DNA of 64,000 bases. Source: Halobellus litoreus (lineage in GTDB: Archaea > Halobacteriota > Halobacteria > Halobacteriales > Haloferacaceae). The position numbers were made by a program, and so were the translations under genes. Of this stretch, positions 12,028-18,948 are shown in pieces. Numbering within the stretch: position 1 is the first letter of the stretch; the number at the start of each line of letters is the position of its first letter. The DNA lies in assembly GCF_024464595.1 (NCBI RefSeq), contig NZ_JANHAW010000001.1:1-64000 (forward strand), in the 5' to 3' direction. The notes below the pieces were generated by a model, which worked only from the letters and a program-made list of their open reading frames with translations, was not told the origin of the DNA and ran no database searches.

Positions 12028-13230
12028 TCAGTCGACCTCCTCAGTCAACACGTCCTTGACGACCTGCGGGTCTTCGAGCAACTGGTGTTTGGTGTAACTC
12101 CCCTCCGCGCTGCCGCCGCTGTGTTTCGACTGTTCGATGATGTCCAGGAACGCGTGTTCTTTGAGGAGGTCGCGAACGCGCCGAAGCGAGAGCGTGTCGG
12201 ACCCCTGGCCGTCGCAGATGTTCTCGTACACGTCGTAGACGCGACTCGTGCGGAATCCCTCCTGGTGGTCGCTCGACAGCGAGAGGATCGCGAGCGCCTG
12301 CAACACGTACCGGGAGTGCGGCGTCGATCCGCGGATGAGTTCGCGGAACCGGTCGGTCTCCGCGCGCTCGCGAGCCTGTGTGACGAACTCCTCGCGGACG
12401 GTCTGTGCACCCGTCGACTGGGCGATTTCGCCCGCGTACCGGAGGATGTCGATCGCCTTTCGGGCGTCGCCGTGCTCCCTGGCGGCGAGCGCGGCCGCTC
12501 GCGGGATCGTCGAGGCGTCGAGGACATCGTCGCGAAACGCGTCCGAGCGTGCCTCCATGATCTCACGGAGTTGATTCGCGTCGTACGGCGGAAAGACGAA
12601 CTCCCGCTCGCAGAGGCTGGATTTGACCCGCTCGTCCATCCGATCCTTGTACTGGATCTTGTTGCTGATCCCGATAACGCCGAGTTTGCACTGCTCGATC
12701 TTGCCCGCTTCGCCGGCCCGGGACAGCTGCATCAGGATGTCGTCGTCGGAGAGTTTGTCGATCTCGTCGAGGAGAATGAGGACGACGTCGTACTGCGCGT
12801 CGAGGATCCGCCAGAGTCGCTTGTAGTACGTCGAGGTGCTGAGCCCCTTGTCGGGGACTTTGATCCCGGTTACGTCCGATTCGTTGACGCCGTCGGCGAT
12901 CGTCTGGACGGCCTGCGTCTCGGTGGTGTCCTGCGCGCAGTCGACGTACGCGAACGTCGCCTTCACGTCCTCTTCGCCCGCCGTGTCGACCAGCCGCTGT
13001 GAGACGTACTTCGCACAGAGTGATTTTCCGGTCCCGGTTTTCCCGTAGATGAGGACGTTACTCGGACTCTGACCGAATATCGCGGGGTTGACCGCGGCCG
13101 CGAGGTCAGATATTTCGTCGTCCCGGCCGACGATGCGTCCTTCTCCGGGGAGGTGATTGATCTCGAGCAGTTCTTTGTTAGAAAAGATGGGATCCTCTCG
13201 GGTGAAGAGGTCGTCGCTGGTGTCCGGCAT
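12028..13230 (-). CDS. orc1: Orc1/Cdc6 replication initiator
   Basis: A 400-residue AAA+ origin-recognition protein. Walker A is YGKTGTGKS near residue 62, Walker B is VLILLDEIDKL near 150, and sensor 1 is GVIGISNK near 183. The lid domain contains ARKAIDILRYAG (sensor 2 region), and a C-terminal winged helix begins near residue 300 (HSRYVLQALAILSLS). It should bind the 21-bp boxes in the adjacent origin and load the MCM helicase. I start at ATG 13230 (MPDTSDDLF) rather than the longer frame, because the upstream codons run through ORB1 and the origin. It reads away from the origin, the usual layout of haloarchaeal oriC1. ORB1 lies only 8 bp upstream of the ATG, so autoregulation is likely. 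Confidence 0.96.
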   Translation of the reverse strand: MPDTSDDLFTREDPIFSNKELLEINHLPGEGRIVGRDDEISDLAAAVNPAIFGQSPSNVLIYGKTGTGKSLCAKYVSQRLVDTAGEEDVKATFAYVDCAQDTTETQAVQTIADGVNESDVTGIKVPDKGLSTSTYYKRLWRILDAQYDVVLILLDEIDKLSDDDILMQLSRAGEAGKIEQCKLGVIGISNKIQYKDRMDERVKSSLCEREFVFPPYDANQLREIMEARSDAFRDDVLDASTIPRAAALAAREHGDARKAIDILRYAGEIAQSTGAQTVREEFVTQARERAETDRFRELIRGSTPHSRYVLQALAILSLSSDHQEGFRTSRVYDVYENICDGQGSDTLSLRRVRDLLKEHAFLDIIEQSKHSGGSAEGSYTKHQLLEDPQVVKDVLTEEVD

Positions 13231-13237
13231 ACTACAG

Positions 13238-13258
13238 GACACCGGGTTTCCGGTGAAA
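13238..13258 (-). repeat. Origin recognition box 1
   Basis: Reads TTTCACCGGAAAC-CCGGTGTC on the minus strand. It ends 8 bp before the orc1 ATG and so overlaps the orc1 promoter and start region. Confidence 0.88.
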
Positions 13259-13440
13259 TACGTTGTTATTCCCCGCCGCTCGCGGTTGGACGGGACCCGC
13301 TCGCACACCGTCGCTACCCGATGAAACCGGGGCGTTCGTTCCGCGAAGACGGGATACGCGTTCTGGATCGGCGAAGTATGTGATTCCCTGCAGACGGCAG
13401 GTACGTTGCTGGATTGAGCAGTCCGTTCCGGGTCGACACA

Positions 13441-13461
13441 CACACCACGTTTCCGGTGAAA
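13441..13461 (-). repeat. Origin recognition box 2
   Basis: Minus-strand copy TTTCACCGGAAAC-GTGGTGTG. It faces box 3 head to head across a 41-bp spacer, forming an inverted pair. Confidence 0.92.
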
Positions 13462-13502
13462 CAAGGAAAAGGGGGAGGAAGTGGATCTGAAGTGGAGGTC
13501 AA

Positions 13503-13523
13503 TTTCACCGGAAACGTGGTGTG
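13503..13523 (+). repeat. Origin recognition box 3
   Basis: Plus-strand copy identical to box 2 (TTTCACCGGAAAC-GTGGTGTG). It points toward the AT-rich centre. Confidence 0.92.
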
Positions 13524-13716
13524 GGGGTCCCGAGAGACTGGCTCGCGGAACTCCGAAACATCGGGGATGCGAGGTCGAAAACGGGGATATCGCTGCGGTG
13601 ATTCGCGTGCATAGACGGTGTACTTCAGGAATCCACGCGGTCGGAGCCGACGGTATCTTCGTTTCTGGTACCCCGACGAGCTAACTTCACTAGCGTGCGA
13701 CGGAGTCACTGGTCGG

Positions 13717-13765
13717 TAACGAAAACGAGGTATATAATTGTTGCCTTCTGAAGGTCAGAATTCGA
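13717..13765. other. Candidate DNA-unwinding element
   Basis: The most AT-rich part of the origin, with GAAAACGAGGTATATAATTG at 13721-13740. It lies about 200 bp from box 3 and from box 4, so it is almost central between the two box groups. That is where initial melting is expected. Inference from composition and position only. Confidence 0.55.
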
Positions 13766-13978
13766 AGCCGAGGGGGGTACGTCTGCGCCGGCATCCCAAC
13801 GATTGATGTCACGAAGGAAGGGGCAGTGTTCCCTGGCTAAAGAAGCCTCAGTACTCCCTACGAAACGCCTTTTCAGCCGATTGCGCTGCACGGGGTGCTG
13901 CTCGGAGACCGAAGAGTGATCGATCAGCAGCGCAGAAACGTGCCCGCTGGCGGATGACTGACGGACGGTTCAGGCGGA

Positions 13979-13999
13979 TTTCACCGGAAACCCGGTGTG
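13979..13999 (+). repeat. Origin recognition box 4
   Basis: Plus-strand copy TTTCACCGGAAAC-CCGGTGTG, sharing the CCG variant with box 1. First of three same-direction boxes on the helicase side. Confidence 0.92.
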
Positions 14000-14039
14000 C
14001 CTCTCCCGCGTCGTCGACGCCGATACGCCGCTTCATCGC

Positions 14040-14060
14040 TTTCACCGGAAACGTGGTGTG
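14040..14060 (+). repeat. Origin recognition box 5
   Basis: Plus-strand copy TTTCACCGGAAAC-GTGGTGTG, identical to boxes 2 and 3, 61 bp after the start of box 4. Confidence 0.92.
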
Positions 14061-14131
14061 TCTCTCAGAAGTCCGAACTCCCCTCTCGAAATAACCGAAA
14101 TTTGTGTCCTCGCTCCTCCATCTTCCCGGTT

Positions 14132-14152
14132 TTTCACCGGAAACACGGTGTG
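14132..14152 (+). repeat. Origin recognition box 6
   Basis: Plus-strand copy TTTCACCGGAAAC-ACGGTGTG, the last box, 92 bp after the start of box 5. Confidence 0.92.
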
Positions 14153-14287
14153 CGTGCGATGAAAGAAACGAGACGTGTGTCAGAGTCGGTCTTGACATCG
14201 TCACGGGTAACACCATCACGGACGATGCCGGAACGCAAGCACGCCGGAGTAGCTACCGATAGCACCTGTACCGGGCCAGCTACCGAA

Positions 14288-14374
14288 AGTCCCGAATCCC
14301 TGCGACGGATCCGTACCTCTGCCACAGTCCCGTACCTCTGCTACAGTCCCATACCCCCGCCAAAAGTCCCGTAT
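14288..14374 (+). repeat. AGTCCC direct repeats between origin and helicase
   Basis: AGTCCC occurs at 14288, 14326, 14345 and 14365, spaced 38, 19 and 20 bp, that is multiples of about two helical turns. Two of the copies lie in a 19-bp unit (CTCTGCCACAGTCCCGTAC at 14317-14335, repeated with two changes at 14336-14354). All precede the helicase ATG at 14443 and could be an upstream control array or an iteron-like part of the origin. Confidence 0.65.
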
Positions 14375-14442
14375 CCCACGTCATCCCAGTGCGCCCGCGA
14401 CAGTCGCAAACCGTTTCCCGGTCGGGGACCTTCCGAGAAACG

Positions 14443-16539
14443 ATGACAGACGACGAGGGCGGCGAGGAATTGGGGGGCGAAGAACGATCTGATGCGGACG
14501 AGGGCCCGCACGGGTCGGCTGTACCCGTCGACGTGGAACGCTTCCGTGACGTCTTGGAGGCCGAGGGACGCCCGCTGGTAACTGCCTCGGAAGTCGCCCG
14601 ACGGCTGAGTACGACGCAGGCAGTCGCTTCGGAGGAACTCGACCGCCTCTCCGAGTCGGGCGCGATAGAGCGCGTCAACGTCGAATCGGATCCCGTCGTC
14701 TATTTCCCGAGAGAGTGGCGCAAGCTCGCCGATCGCGAGCGAATCGTGCTGTTCCCGGAGCGCCGAGAGATCGTCGTCGACCGCCCCACACAGTACACGC
14801 GCGCGCAACTCTCCCAGTTCGCTCACCTCGTCGACTCCACCGGCGAACGGGAACGAACGACTGCGGATCGGGAGACGAACACGCGTGGGTACATTTACGA
14901 GATCAGACAGGAAGACGTCTGGCAGGCCCCGTTCGACGACGTATCCGACCTGCTTTCGATGATGCGTTCGGTTCTCCCGCGTCGATCGCCCCACTTGGAA
15001 TCGTGGGTCGAATCGCAGTGGAAACGCGCAAACCGATTCCGCCTGTTCACCCACGAGGACGGCTACGTCGTCATCGAGGCCGCTTCGGAGAGTCTGATGG
15101 GCAACGTCGCGCGCCAGAAACTCGACGAGGAGCAGTTGGTTGCGCCGATCTCCGACACGCAGAGCTGGGTCCGAGACGGGGCGGAAGCAGCGATCAAGCG
15201 GATCCTCTACGAGGCGGGGTATCCGGTCGTCGACGACCGCGACCTCGATACCGGAGACCCGCTCGATCTGGACCTGACGGTCGATCTGCGCGATTACCAA
15301 CGGGACTGGGTCGATCGATTCCTCGATCAGCGGTCGGGCGTCCTCGTCGGCCCGTCGGGCGCGGGAAAGACAGTGACGGCGATCGGGGTCCTGGCCGCGG
15401 TCGGCGGCGAGACGCTCGTGTTAGTCCCGTCGCGTGAACTCGCCTCGCAGTGGCGTCAGGAACTCCTCAGGCACACCACCCTCGACGCGGAACAGATCGG
15501 CGAGTACCACGGCGGGCAGAAGGAGATCCGTCCGGTGACGATCGCGACCTACCAGACCGCGGGAATGGACCGCCACCGCTCCCTGTTCGACTCCCGCGGG
15601 TGGGGACTGGTCGTCTACGACGAGGTTCACCACATCCCTTCGAAGATATACCGACGGAGCGCGGACCTCCAGACGAAACACCGGCTTGGACTCTCGGCGA
15701 CTCCCGTTCGAGAGGACGACAAGGAGAAGGAGATATTCACGCTAATCGGCCCTCCGATCGGAACCGACTGGTCGAAACTGTTCGACGCCGGGTACGTCCA
15801 AGAGCCGGAGGTCCAGATCCGGTATCTGCCGTGGGCCGACGACCTCGCGCGTAACGAGTGGGCGAGCGCCGAGGGACGAGACAGGCACCGAATCGCGGCG
15901 GAGAACCCGCAGAAGATCGAAGAGACTCGCCGGCTGCTCGGCGCCCACCCGGACGCGAAAGCGCTCGTCTTCGTCGACTGGCTCGAACAGGGGAAAGCGC
16001 TCGCGGAGTCGCTCGACGTTCCGTTCGTCAGCGGCGAGATGCCGCATCACCGTCGCGAGCGCGTGTTCGATTCGTTTCGGGACGGCGACCTCCGCACGCT
16101 CGTTATCTCGCGCGTCGGCGACGAGGGCATCGACCTGCCGAACGCGGAGCTCGCGATCGTCGCGTCCGGCCTCGGCGGGTCGCGACGGCAGGGCGCACAG
16201 CGCGCCGGACGGACGATGCGACCCGCCGGCGGGTCACAGGTGTACGTACTCGCCACCCGCGGGACTTCCGAGGAGGACTTCGCACAGCGACGGATGCGCC
16301 ACCTGGCTGAGAAAGGCGTTCGGGTGAAGGAGTCGGACCGTCCCCGAGAGACGGAGACGGAGGCGGAGGCGGGCGTGACCGAAGCGGTGGCGGAGGACGG
16401 AACTGACTCGTCGAGAGACGACCGAGCCGAAGCGGACGAGGACGATCAGATCGAACAGCGAACAGACGACAGACCCGAAGGTGCCGATTCAGGCACGAAC
16501 CGGTTTGTCCGAGGCGACGCCGACGACCAGGAGGAGTGA
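14443..16539 (+). CDS. XPB/Rad25-like superfamily 2 DNA helicase
   Basis: A 698-residue SF2 helicase. The N-terminal 280 residues are an accessory region with an HTH-like segment near 40-80 (PLVTASEVARRLSTTQAVASEEL). The helicase core starts with LRDYQRDWVDRFL. Walker A is GPSGAGKT (about 305), motif II is the DEVH box in LVVYDEVHHIPS, motif III is LSATPVRED, and motif VI is GAQRAGRTMRP. Archaeal XPB relatives act in DNA repair or transcription-related remodelling. The final 75 residues are acidic low complexity. I start at ATG 14443; 18 upstream codons fall in the AGTCCC repeat region. The methylase-like gene starts 9 bp after its stop, so they probably share a transcript. Position next to oriC hints at a replication-linked role (inference). 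Confidence 0.88.
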   Translation: MTDDEGGEELGGEERSDADEGPHGSAVPVDVERFRDVLEAEGRPLVTASEVARRLSTTQAVASEELDRLSESGAIERVNVESDPVVYFPREWRKLADRERIVLFPERREIVVDRPTQYTRAQLSQFAHLVDSTGERERTTADRETNTRGYIYEIRQEDVWQAPFDDVSDLLSMMRSVLPRRSPHLESWVESQWKRANRFRLFTHEDGYVVIEAASESLMGNVARQKLDEEQLVAPISDTQSWVRDGAEAAIKRILYEAGYPVVDDRDLDTGDPLDLDLTVDLRDYQRDWVDRFLDQRSGVLVGPSGAGKTVTAIGVLAAVGGETLVLVPSRELASQWRQELLRHTTLDAEQIGEYHGGQKEIRPVTIATYQTAGMDRHRSLFDSRGWGLVVYDEVHHIPSKIYRRSADLQTKHRLGLSATPVREDDKEKEIFTLIGPPIGTDWSKLFDAGYVQEPEVQIRYLPWADDLARNEWASAEGRDRHRIAAENPQKIEETRRLLGAHPDAKALVFVDWLEQGKALAESLDVPFVSGEMPHHRRERVFDSFRDGDLRTLVISRVGDEGIDLPNAELAIVASGLGGSRRQGAQRAGRTMRPAGGSQVYVLATRGTSEEDFAQRRMRHLAEKGVRVKESDRPRETETEAEAGVTEAVAEDGTDSSRDDRAEADEDDQIEQRTDDRPEGADSGTNRFVRGDADDQEE

Positions 16540-16548
16540 GCTCCCAGG

Positions 16549-18948
16549 ATGCCAGACGGAGACTCTGTCGGCGACAATGACGGCACCTCCCCGCTGCCAC
16601 GTCTCTTGGATACTGATCTGCTCGGACAGTATCGGTCGTCGCTGGAAGCGTCACTCGGCCACCCGACGATCGAGTCCGAGTTCGACGCGTGGCGAGCGTA
16701 CGTTGCCGGACGGCACGGAGACGTCTTTGCCCACCTCGCCGACGACTCGTCGGTATCGGCGGCCGCTCAGACGCTTTTCGTCGACACCCTGACCTTCGAC
16801 TTCCTGCTCACCCGACTGCTCGACGCGGTCGAAGATCGATTCGACTGTACCGTTGCCCGCCCACTCGCGGCCGACGCCTCGGTCCCGTTCGACGCGGACT
16901 TCGCATCCGTCCACGAGGTGGTTGCTGCCGAGATGTCCGTTCCGGCGGAGGCGTCTGCGTTCCGTCGGCAGGCCGTCGAGTGCGTCGAGTCGGCGTCGCC
17001 GTACGACGTCGCGGGCCTCTATCGAGAGTCCGTTTCACTCCGCACCCGGCGGGCATTCGGTCGGTACGACACGCCTCGCGGACTCGCTGAACTCGCGGTC
17101 CAAGAGGTTTTTGAGCGCTCCGCAGAGGGTGGAAGGGCGTCCGAAGCGGCCGGATCCGAATCAGAATTACGCTCCGCTGAAGAAGCCGACTCGGCCCGTT
17201 CAGCGGACATCTCGCTCGTGGTGGACCCCGGCTGTGGTGCCGGGGCTTTCCTCGGTGCGGCGGCGGCTCGGCTTGTAGCGGAGCCACGGGACGTTCCAGC
17301 CACCGAGCGAATCCGAACCATACTCGATTCCGTCCGCGGATTCGACATCGCCCCGAGTGCCGTTCGGGCTTCCCGGCTCGCGCTTATCCTCGCCGTCCGG
17401 CCGCTCCTCGAAGCGATGAACGATTCAGAGCGGGCGACCGAGGGGCGCCCGACGTTCACTCCTCGCGTCGTTCTCGGCGACGCCGCCGAAGCGACTCCCG
17501 ACAGTCCTCCGCTCGACGGGGAACGCGCCGACGCGCTGTTGATGAACCCGCCGTGGCTGACCTGGGATTCGCTGTCGGAGACGGTGAAAGACCGCTGGCG
17601 AACGGACTCGGGAGACGGCTCCGAACCGGCCTTGTTCGGCCACCGTGGTCTCGACGCCCGACTCGGTTACGCGAACGACGATCTCTCAGTACCGTACGCG
17701 CTTCGCTGTGTCCACCGATTGCTCCGCGACGGGGGCCGCGCGTCGCTGATTCTGAAGCGAGACCTCCTCATCGGTCCCGCCGGGGAACGGCTCCGGCGAT
17801 CGGACATCGGCGGGCGCTCGATCGTCTACGATCGCGTCCACGACTTCGGCTCGTTGGCCCCGTTCGCGGAGGTCGACGCGGGGACCGCGCTGTTCGCGCT
17901 CCGGATGGGCGGAAGCGGAGACCATAGCGACGTTTCTGGAACGGAACCGACGGAAGACGGGATCCCGCTGACCCGATGGTGTACTGTTTCCGAAACGAAC
18001 GCGCCAACGCCGTCACGGAACGGCGTCGATTCCTTCGAGTCGTTGTCGAGGATGCGATCGTCGTTCGATCGCACGCGGACGCACCTCGTCCCGGCCGAAC
18101 CGGGTACCCCGTCGTCGCCTTGGCTCAGTGCTGACGCCGAGAGAGCGGCGCTCGGAACGTGCACCTATCGAATTCGACACGGCGTCAAAGACGACGCGAA
18201 AGCGGTCTACGCAGTCGACGAGGAGACGATCGAGCGCCACGGTCTGGAATCCGATCACGTCTACCCGTATTTGAAATCGAAACACATCGTGAAGTACGGC
18301 CTCTTCGGTCACGACCTCCAACTCGTTCCCCAACGACGCGTCGACGAGAACAACGAGGACGAGATCCGGCGGGAGACCCCGGCGACGTACGCCTATCTGG
18401 ATGCACACCGCGATCGACTGCTCGACCGCGGCTCTTCCTGGTTCGACGGCGAGCCGTTCTACTCGCTTTTCGGGATCGGTCCGTACACGTGGGCGGAGTA
18501 CAAGGTCGTCTGGTGCCGCCTCGGATTCAAGCCGCACTTCGCCGTCGTCTCGACGGTCTCCGACTCTCTCGTCGGCGACAAGCCAGTCGTCCCGGGAGAC
18601 CACTGTATGTTCGTCGCTACCGACGACGAGCGCGAAGCCCACTACCTCTGTGCGCTTCTCAATTCCGCGCCCTATCAGCGGTGCCTCCGCGACATCTCCT
18701 CCGGGGGGAAAGCCAGCCTCTCGAAGTCGACGGTCGAGCGACTCGCACTCCCGAAATGGGACGACAGCCACCGACAGCGACGACTCGCAGCGCTGTCACA
18801 ACGAGCCCACTCGATCGTTCCCGAACACACCGACTGCTCGAAACGGGCCTACAATACCAAGACGATTCCCGAGCTGGCTTCCGTCCAGCACGAAATCGAC
18901 CGAACCGCCGAACGGTTCCTAGTTGCTGACGCCGACGGAGGAGTCTGA
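16549..18948 (+). CDS. N6-adenine DNA methyltransferase-like protein, no nuclease seen
   Basis: A 799-residue protein built like Eco57I/TaqI-class gamma-type adenine methyltransferases. SAM motif I is VVDPGCGAGAFLGAA (about residue 223), catalytic motif IV is LLMNPPWLTW (about 329), and a TaqI-like specificity domain follows residue 540 (VYPYLKSKHIVKYG, then the long segment to FAVVSTVS). The C-terminus (LCALLNSAPYQR) also matches target-recognition domains. I see no PD-(D/E)XK or HNH nuclease motif in the 220 residues before motif I, so it looks like a methylase without an obvious cutter. It follows the XPB-like gene by 9 bp beside the origin. Genome marking, defence or an origin-linked task are possible; the modified sequence is unknown. 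Confidence 0.78.
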   Translation: MPDGDSVGDNDGTSPLPRLLDTDLLGQYRSSLEASLGHPTIESEFDAWRAYVAGRHGDVFAHLADDSSVSAAAQTLFVDTLTFDFLLTRLLDAVEDRFDCTVARPLAADASVPFDADFASVHEVVAAEMSVPAEASAFRRQAVECVESASPYDVAGLYRESVSLRTRRAFGRYDTPRGLAELAVQEVFERSAEGGRASEAAGSESELRSAEEADSARSADISLVVDPGCGAGAFLGAAAARLVAEPRDVPATERIRTILDSVRGFDIAPSAVRASRLALILAVRPLLEAMNDSERATEGRPTFTPRVVLGDAAEATPDSPPLDGERADALLMNPPWLTWDSLSETVKDRWRTDSGDGSEPALFGHRGLDARLGYANDDLSVPYALRCVHRLLRDGGRASLILKRDLLIGPAGERLRRSDIGGRSIVYDRVHDFGSLAPFAEVDAGTALFALRMGGSGDHSDVSGTEPTEDGIPLTRWCTVSETNAPTPSRNGVDSFESLSRMRSSFDRTRTHLVPAEPGTPSSPWLSADAERAALGTCTYRIRHGVKDDAKAVYAVDEETIERHGLESDHVYPYLKSKHIVKYGLFGHDLQLVPQRRVDENNEDEIRRETPATYAYLDAHRDRLLDRGSSWFDGEPFYSLFGIGPYTWAEYKVVWCRLGFKPHFAVVSTVSDSLVGDKPVVPGDHCMFVATDDEREAHYLCALLNSAPYQRCLRDISSGGKASLSKSTVERLALPKWDDSHRQRRLAALSQRAHSIVPEHTDCSKRAYNTKTIPELASVQHEIDRTAERFLVADADGGV

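Follow-up and report, generated by a model that had tools for sequence, protein, structure and literature searches.

The origin locus and its neighboring genes

The window analyzed here is a stretch of 64,000 nucleotides (positions 1-64000 of a 1.51-Mb contig) from the 3.86-Mb genome of Halobellus litoreus (Haloferacaceae). It carries, at 13238-14152, a cluster of 21-bp boxes directly upstream of an orc1/cdc6 gene of the oriC1 family. The gene (12028..13230, - strand) encodes a 400-aa initiator with Cdc6_lid (8e-20), Cdc6_C (2e-17), and AAA domains in Pfam, and its nearest solved structures are 2qby_A (1.8e-62) and 2v1u_A (1.5e-59), so the earlier identification of this neighbor as Orc1 was correct. 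The protein is 99% identical to that of Halobellus rarus and 88-99% identical to the oriC1-linked Orc1 of Haloferacaceae. The cluster is flanked on the other side by an XPB/Rad25-like helicase gene (14443..16539, + strand; ERCC3_RAD25_C, 1e-24), which also adjoins the origin in Halobellus, Haloferax, Halogeometricum, and Salinigranum loci. A 799-aa protein near the origin (16549-18948) has zero Pfam matches at 1e-3 and contains an NPPW motif suggestive of an adenine DNA methyltransferase; its conservation of 44-68% is far below that of the neighboring helicase. A second Orc, 57% identical to Orc1, is encoded elsewhere (G000:C4:22011-23180; L027 3227-3853) with an inverted array of a different box family, TTTACAGCGGCAACGAGGGGTGTG, upstream of it, and this is probably a second origin.

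Six matches to TTTCACCGGAAACNNGGTGTG are found in the window, whereas 100 dinucleotide shuffles gave 0.01 on average and never more than 1, which rules out chance repeats as their source. The sequence-only reading had placed these near-identical boxes correctly and had counted three variable positions, which are positions 14, 15, and 21. Box 1 (13238-13258, - strand) lies 28 bp upstream of the orc1 ATG. Box 2 (13441-13461, - strand), the inner box of the left arm, and box 3 (13503-13523, + strand) form an inverted pair, 62 bp start to start, and box 3 is followed by GGGGG. The spacer between them (13462-13502, + strand), AAAAGGGGGAGGAAGTGG, is G-rich and resembles the G-rich enhancer repeat within the ORBs of the Haloarcula hispanica oriC1 (PMC3936714); in many relatives, the other strand of this spacer is pyrimidine-rich. 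Boxes 4 (13979-13999, the inner box of the right arm), 5 (14040-14060), and 6 (14132-14152) are direct repeats on the + strand. The inverted pair and the common direction of boxes 4-6 had both been noted before and are borne out.

Boxes 3 and 4 are separated by 455 bp, and the lowest GC content between them is at about 13733-13762, a stretch that contains TATATAATTGTTG and is a candidate duplex unwinding element. The AT-rich center proposed near 13740 thus exists, but it is weak in the source species (33% GC in the lowest 30 bp and 48% GC in the lowest 100 bp). Five of the six boxes point their TTTCACC end toward it, box 3 being the single exception, and the three-plus-three placement is therefore not a simple symmetric one. 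GC skew within the window, in 4-kb windows, shows a weak turn near the origin, at about 14000-18000, where mostly positive values give way to negative ones.

Conservation of the origin and of the promoter box

The upstream regions of 65 related orc1 loci usually carry the same boxes in a shared order. Toward orc1, the distal boxes, which share one direction, come first; a long gap with the GC minimum follows, then box 3 in the same direction, box 2 in the opposite one, and finally box 1. A comparison with related origins had been suggested for the window, and the arrangement of box 1, box 2, inverted box 3, AT-rich stretch, and boxes 4 onward recurs in Halobellus, Haloferax, Halogeometricum, Salinigranum, Halegenticoccus, and Natrinema. 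In almost all of the related origins that were compared, the GC minimum lies in the gap from box 3 to box 4, which indicates that the AT-rich center, at the same place in relatives, is a conserved feature. In 27 loci, boxes 2 and 3 are spaced by either 61-65 or 73-74 bp, and these two classes differ by roughly one turn of the helix. Strict helical phasing of the pair is a hint only, since Haloferax dominates the sample and Halorubrum departs widely from this spacing.

Unlike the ORBs of some other haloarchaea, the boxes of the window, and the 343 boxes of the family, do not regularly end in an extended G-string on the 3′ side. Scored as GGGG within 12 nt of a box, with the GGTGTG box end (possibly the G-string of older papers) uncounted, a G-string accompanies 19 of the 343 boxes and, in the window, only box 3. 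Named Haloferacaceae origins are also without it, and its absence looks like a lineage difference. In the remaining respects, the locus has what an oriC1 is expected to have: several near-identical ORBs, some of them inverted, and an AT-rich element flanked by them, though a weak one. This arrangement matches the published haloarchaeal oriC1 family (PMC3528665, PMC3936714, PMC4010727). Positions 13238-14152 are almost certainly an oriC1-type chromosomal replication origin of Halobellus, and the comparison with relatives strongly supports a predicted Orc1-dependent mode of action with two arms around an unwinding element. By itself, such an origin is of an already known kind, the conserved haloarchaeal oriC1 beside orc1.

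Box 1 behaves differently from the other boxes. In each of the 65 related loci, box 1 keeps a distance of 24-30 bp from the start codon of orc1, on its upstream side. This holds also in L116, where the remaining boxes are at -3.2 to -3.7 kb, and in L104, L120, and L128, where none of them was found within 6 kb upstream. In Halorubrum and relatives (these four loci and L106, L115, L125, and L136), the origin boxes are 0.5-3 kb from orc1 or were not found upstream while box 1 stays, and there may be insertions in the origin region of these loci. A start-codon distance that remains constant when the other boxes are kilobases away suggests that box 1 probably belongs to the promoter of orc1 and not to a loading arm. 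As leaderless mRNAs are common in haloarchaea, the position of box 1 overlaps the orc1 core promoter. Box 1 is likely to be an autoregulation box of orc1, and autorepression would be the simplest reading. Of the two-armed origin with three boxes on each side, the Orc1-linked architecture shared with relatives is retained, but box 1, as a probable promoter element, and the reversed box 3 depart from it.

Solitary boxes distant from the origin

Two further exact copies of the box are present in the source genome, on the same contig at C1:180769-180789 and C1:358157-358177, 167 and 345 kb from the origin. We refer to such solitary copies as satellites. One of the two is located downstream of gyrA, in the convergent gap between gyrA and an arginase-family gene, and the other is located beside bcp, next to GINS51 and the primase gene priS, on the cdc48 side. 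No orc gene is found at either site.

The two sites are conserved in position. The gyrA-junction box is present in 14 genomes, ten of Halobellus and four from two other genera, and the bcp-junction box in 24 genomes of many genera, at syntenic sites. Pairwise identity averages 0.96 and 0.94 across the satellite boxes compared to 0.28-0.38 in the 40-bp flanks, while the two N positions vary as freely as they do at origins. This pattern is a clear footprint, and we are highly confident that the satellites are under selection.

Across genomes, 48 satellite sites with 0-1 mismatch were collected, with gene context taken from a codon-based gene caller that was checked on the window. They comprise 25 convergent, 18 tandem, and 4 divergent sites and 1 unclear one, and none is inside a gene. 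A control with the reversed pattern gave 0 matches in the source genome and in all genomes searched; this result, together with the lack of 0-1-mismatch sites within genes, rules out chance matches. Most two-mismatch matches outside the known junctions were left out because 8 of 22 were inside genes. One two-mismatch copy, probably intragenic, is located near the end of another contig (G000:C5:121909-121929).

Satellites are few and close to the origin. Genomes that carry them have one to four, 50-460 kb from the origin, compared to 6-10 boxes at the origin itself. In nine complete chromosomes, 16 of 16 sites are within 31% of the half-chromosome from oriC1, and merging of orthologous junctions leaves nine independent sites (KS p = 2.7e-7 versus a uniform distribution). 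Their positions differ between genera, and they are almost confined to Haloferacaceae. In G029, G034, G039, and G091, oriC1 is present and no satellite is found at 0-1 mismatch; in G014, G015, and G087, a satellite is found only at 2 mismatches. Other neighbors of satellites include ndk, dnaJ, TrkA/DHH, and amino-acid genes, and no single regulon is apparent from neighbors so varied.

Dormant or relic origins would be expected to combine at least two ORBs with an AT-rich element and to lie, in most cases, next to an orc gene. No partner box was found within 400 bp of the satellites, except at L163, nor was an AT-rich element, the GC minimum being within background. The satellites are not origins of this kind, and dormant origins are ruled out for lack of both elements.

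Loss of Orc1 and of the satellites

Satellites are found in 31 of the 38 genomes that have an oriC1-type box cluster, compared to 1 of the 16 that lack this Orc1 (p = 2.6e-7). The bcp-junction box shows the same tendency (24/36 versus 0/11; p = 8e-5). These p values overstate independence because the species are related, but the direction is consistent. Genomes without an oriC1-family Orc1 include G004, G012, G017, G018, G020, G024, G031, G038, G044, G045, G047, G085, G097, and G102, all Haloferacaceae and mostly 97-99% complete. In several Orc1-less Haloferacaceae, identity of the best Orc is about 36-56%, and a matching box cluster was not found; the single-contig G018 has only one Orc-like match (36-44% identical) at E <= 1e-40. 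Several of the Orc1-less genomes are assembled in 1-5 contigs with 97-99% completeness. Assembly masking is ruled out as the cause of the missing gene, as there are no long N runs at the helicase neighbor (only 120 N in one genome) and a truncated orc1 with a stop persists in G005.

Two Halobellus genomes without an intact orc1, G004 and G005, are informative at the level of single sites. Both retain the gyrA-arginase neighborhood. Neither has a satellite box at the gyrA-arginase or bcp junction, where the best match has 8-9 mismatches, as in random sequence. G005 retains only residues 283-400 of Orc1, with an internal TAA stop, and this remnant is accompanied by three ORB-like boxes with 1-2 mismatches (L388 4889-5248; G005:C4:39888-40247), which has the appearance of a decaying oriC1 unit. 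oriC1 was reported to be conserved in all 15 haloarchaeal genomes analyzed (PMC3528665). The natural joint loss of orc1 and satellites shows that this origin, despite its reported conservation, can be lost.

A possible system for control of initiation

Collectively, these results can be accommodated in one explanation, which we consider reasonably probable as a whole: an oriC1 origin, autorepression through box 1, and satellite Orc1 sites that limit re-initiation. Orc1 would bind box 2 on one side of the AT-rich stretch near 13740 and boxes 4-6 on the other, and would recruit the MCM helicase into this stretch, and box 3 would pair with box 2 as its inverted partner. Orc1 on box 1 would most likely repress orc1. 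The same Orc1 is predicted, with a high degree of probability, to bind the solitary satellites because these share the sequence of the origin boxes. Soon after forks pass, the satellites would most likely take up or alter Orc1, and re-initiation would thereby be limited. Taken separately, this role of the satellites in controlling initiation is tentative, and we would put it slightly short of even. Two points count against titration: relative to 6-10 origin boxes, one to four satellites offer a small capacity if Orc1 is not scarce, and haloarchaeal cells are polyploid.

Stated more broadly, the odds lean modestly toward an undescribed chromosome-wide initiator system of Haloferacaceae, in which one to four solitary, origin-proximal, intergenic Orc1 boxes, selected only while Orc1 is present, act together with a promoter box and either regulate initiation or organize the origin domain. 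No earlier description of origin-distant Orc1 boxes that are solitary, conserved in position, and dependent on the initiator was found in the open-access literature, which was the scope of the search. The exact sites for mutation are now known.

Several other readings of the satellites have to be weighed. First, they may be parS-like anchors at which the origin domain is organized or segregated by Orc1 or by some partner, for example a condensin loader. parS sites have a distribution that resembles that of the satellites, which are solitary, short, and few, occur in both orientations and mostly between gene ends, and all lie in the origin-proximal third of each half-chromosome; anchoring would fit this distribution nearly as well as initiation control. 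However, archaeal Orc1 is not known to be linked to segregation or to the loading of SMC, no protein that spreads or bridges has been identified, and the same evidence is equally compatible with titration. We regard anchoring as rather unlikely.

Second, the locus may be an ordinary oriC1 only, with distal boxes that are relics of former origins or neutral leftovers. The origin architecture and its linkage to Orc1 are indeed textbook (PMC3528665, PMC4010727), haloarchaeal origins in variable regions do decay (PMC4441112), and some satellite positions differ between genera. A neutral relic, however, would hold neither 94-96% identity in the box amid flanks at about 30% nor a restriction to intergenic sites. 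Moreover, the satellites vanish specifically in genomes that lost Orc1, and they lack the partner box and AT-rich stretch expected of a relic origin, which makes this reading improbable.

Third, Orc1 may use the satellites as transcriptional control sites for gyrA, priS/GINS51/bcp, and other genes. The two commonest neighbors are replication genes (gyrA, and bcp of the priS-GINS51 neighborhood), and box 1 is itself on the orc1 promoter. Against this, only 4 of the 48 sites are between divergent genes and many other neighbors are unrelated metabolic genes. Transcriptional control fits poorly with satellites of which about half are convergent, downstream of both neighbors, and it is quite improbable. 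Finally, bidirectional transcription terminators that act at the RNA level and resemble the box by chance would suit the convergent locations, the T-rich GTTTA that precedes the bcp box, and the partial dyad CACC...GGTG, but they can practically be dismissed, given the same 19 constrained and two free positions as in origin boxes, only two exact copies genome-wide outside oriC1, and the absence of the box from Orc1-less relatives with the same gene junctions.

Comparison with known systems

Compared to the haloarchaeal oriC1 linked to orc7, cdc6A, or orc1 in Halobacterium, Haloferax, and Haloarcula, the origin in the window shares the location upstream of a conserved orc1, the conserved neighborhood, and the multiple inverted ORBs around an AT-rich region with a G-rich stretch inside the inverted pair. 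It differs in having six boxes rather than a minimal pair and in its weak AT-rich center. In Haloarcula hispanica, the G-run at the end of the ORBs was reported to be essential (PMC3936714), whereas the box family of the window is without an extended G-run. The ORB2-DUE-ORB3 arrangement of the Sulfolobus oriC1 (PMC12141716) likewise has Orc1 boxes of opposite polarity flanking an AT-rich element, but it spans about 130 bp, compared to 455 bp between boxes 3 and 4 in the window, where box 3 is an extra inverted box.

For how archaea keep an origin from firing twice, the literature covered here gave one published model, in which the initiator is titrated by boxes clustered next to another origin (oriC2D of Haloarcula hispanica; PMC3936714). 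Like the satellites, oriC2D has Orc/Cdc6 boxes outside an origin, which are proposed to titrate the initiator (Cdc6E). It is, however, a cluster of 11 boxes directly beside cdc6E, whereas the satellites are single, 50-460 kb away, and related to oriC1 and Orc1.

A further parallel in logic is with datA/DARS of Escherichia coli (PMC4585315), which are also non-coding initiator sites off the origin at a conserved distance from it. The satellites are distant from the origin, non-coding, and conserved in position, with initiator binding predicted from their sequence. Their dependence on the cognate initiator is seen comparatively, in 31/38 versus 1/16 genomes and in their loss from Orc1-less Halobellus. 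They differ from datA/DARS in being single Orc1 boxes for an archaeal initiator, with no cluster or accessory site seen. If the proposed explanation is true, archaea share the two-part logic of bacteria, in which distant initiator sites are combined with an autoregulated initiator gene.
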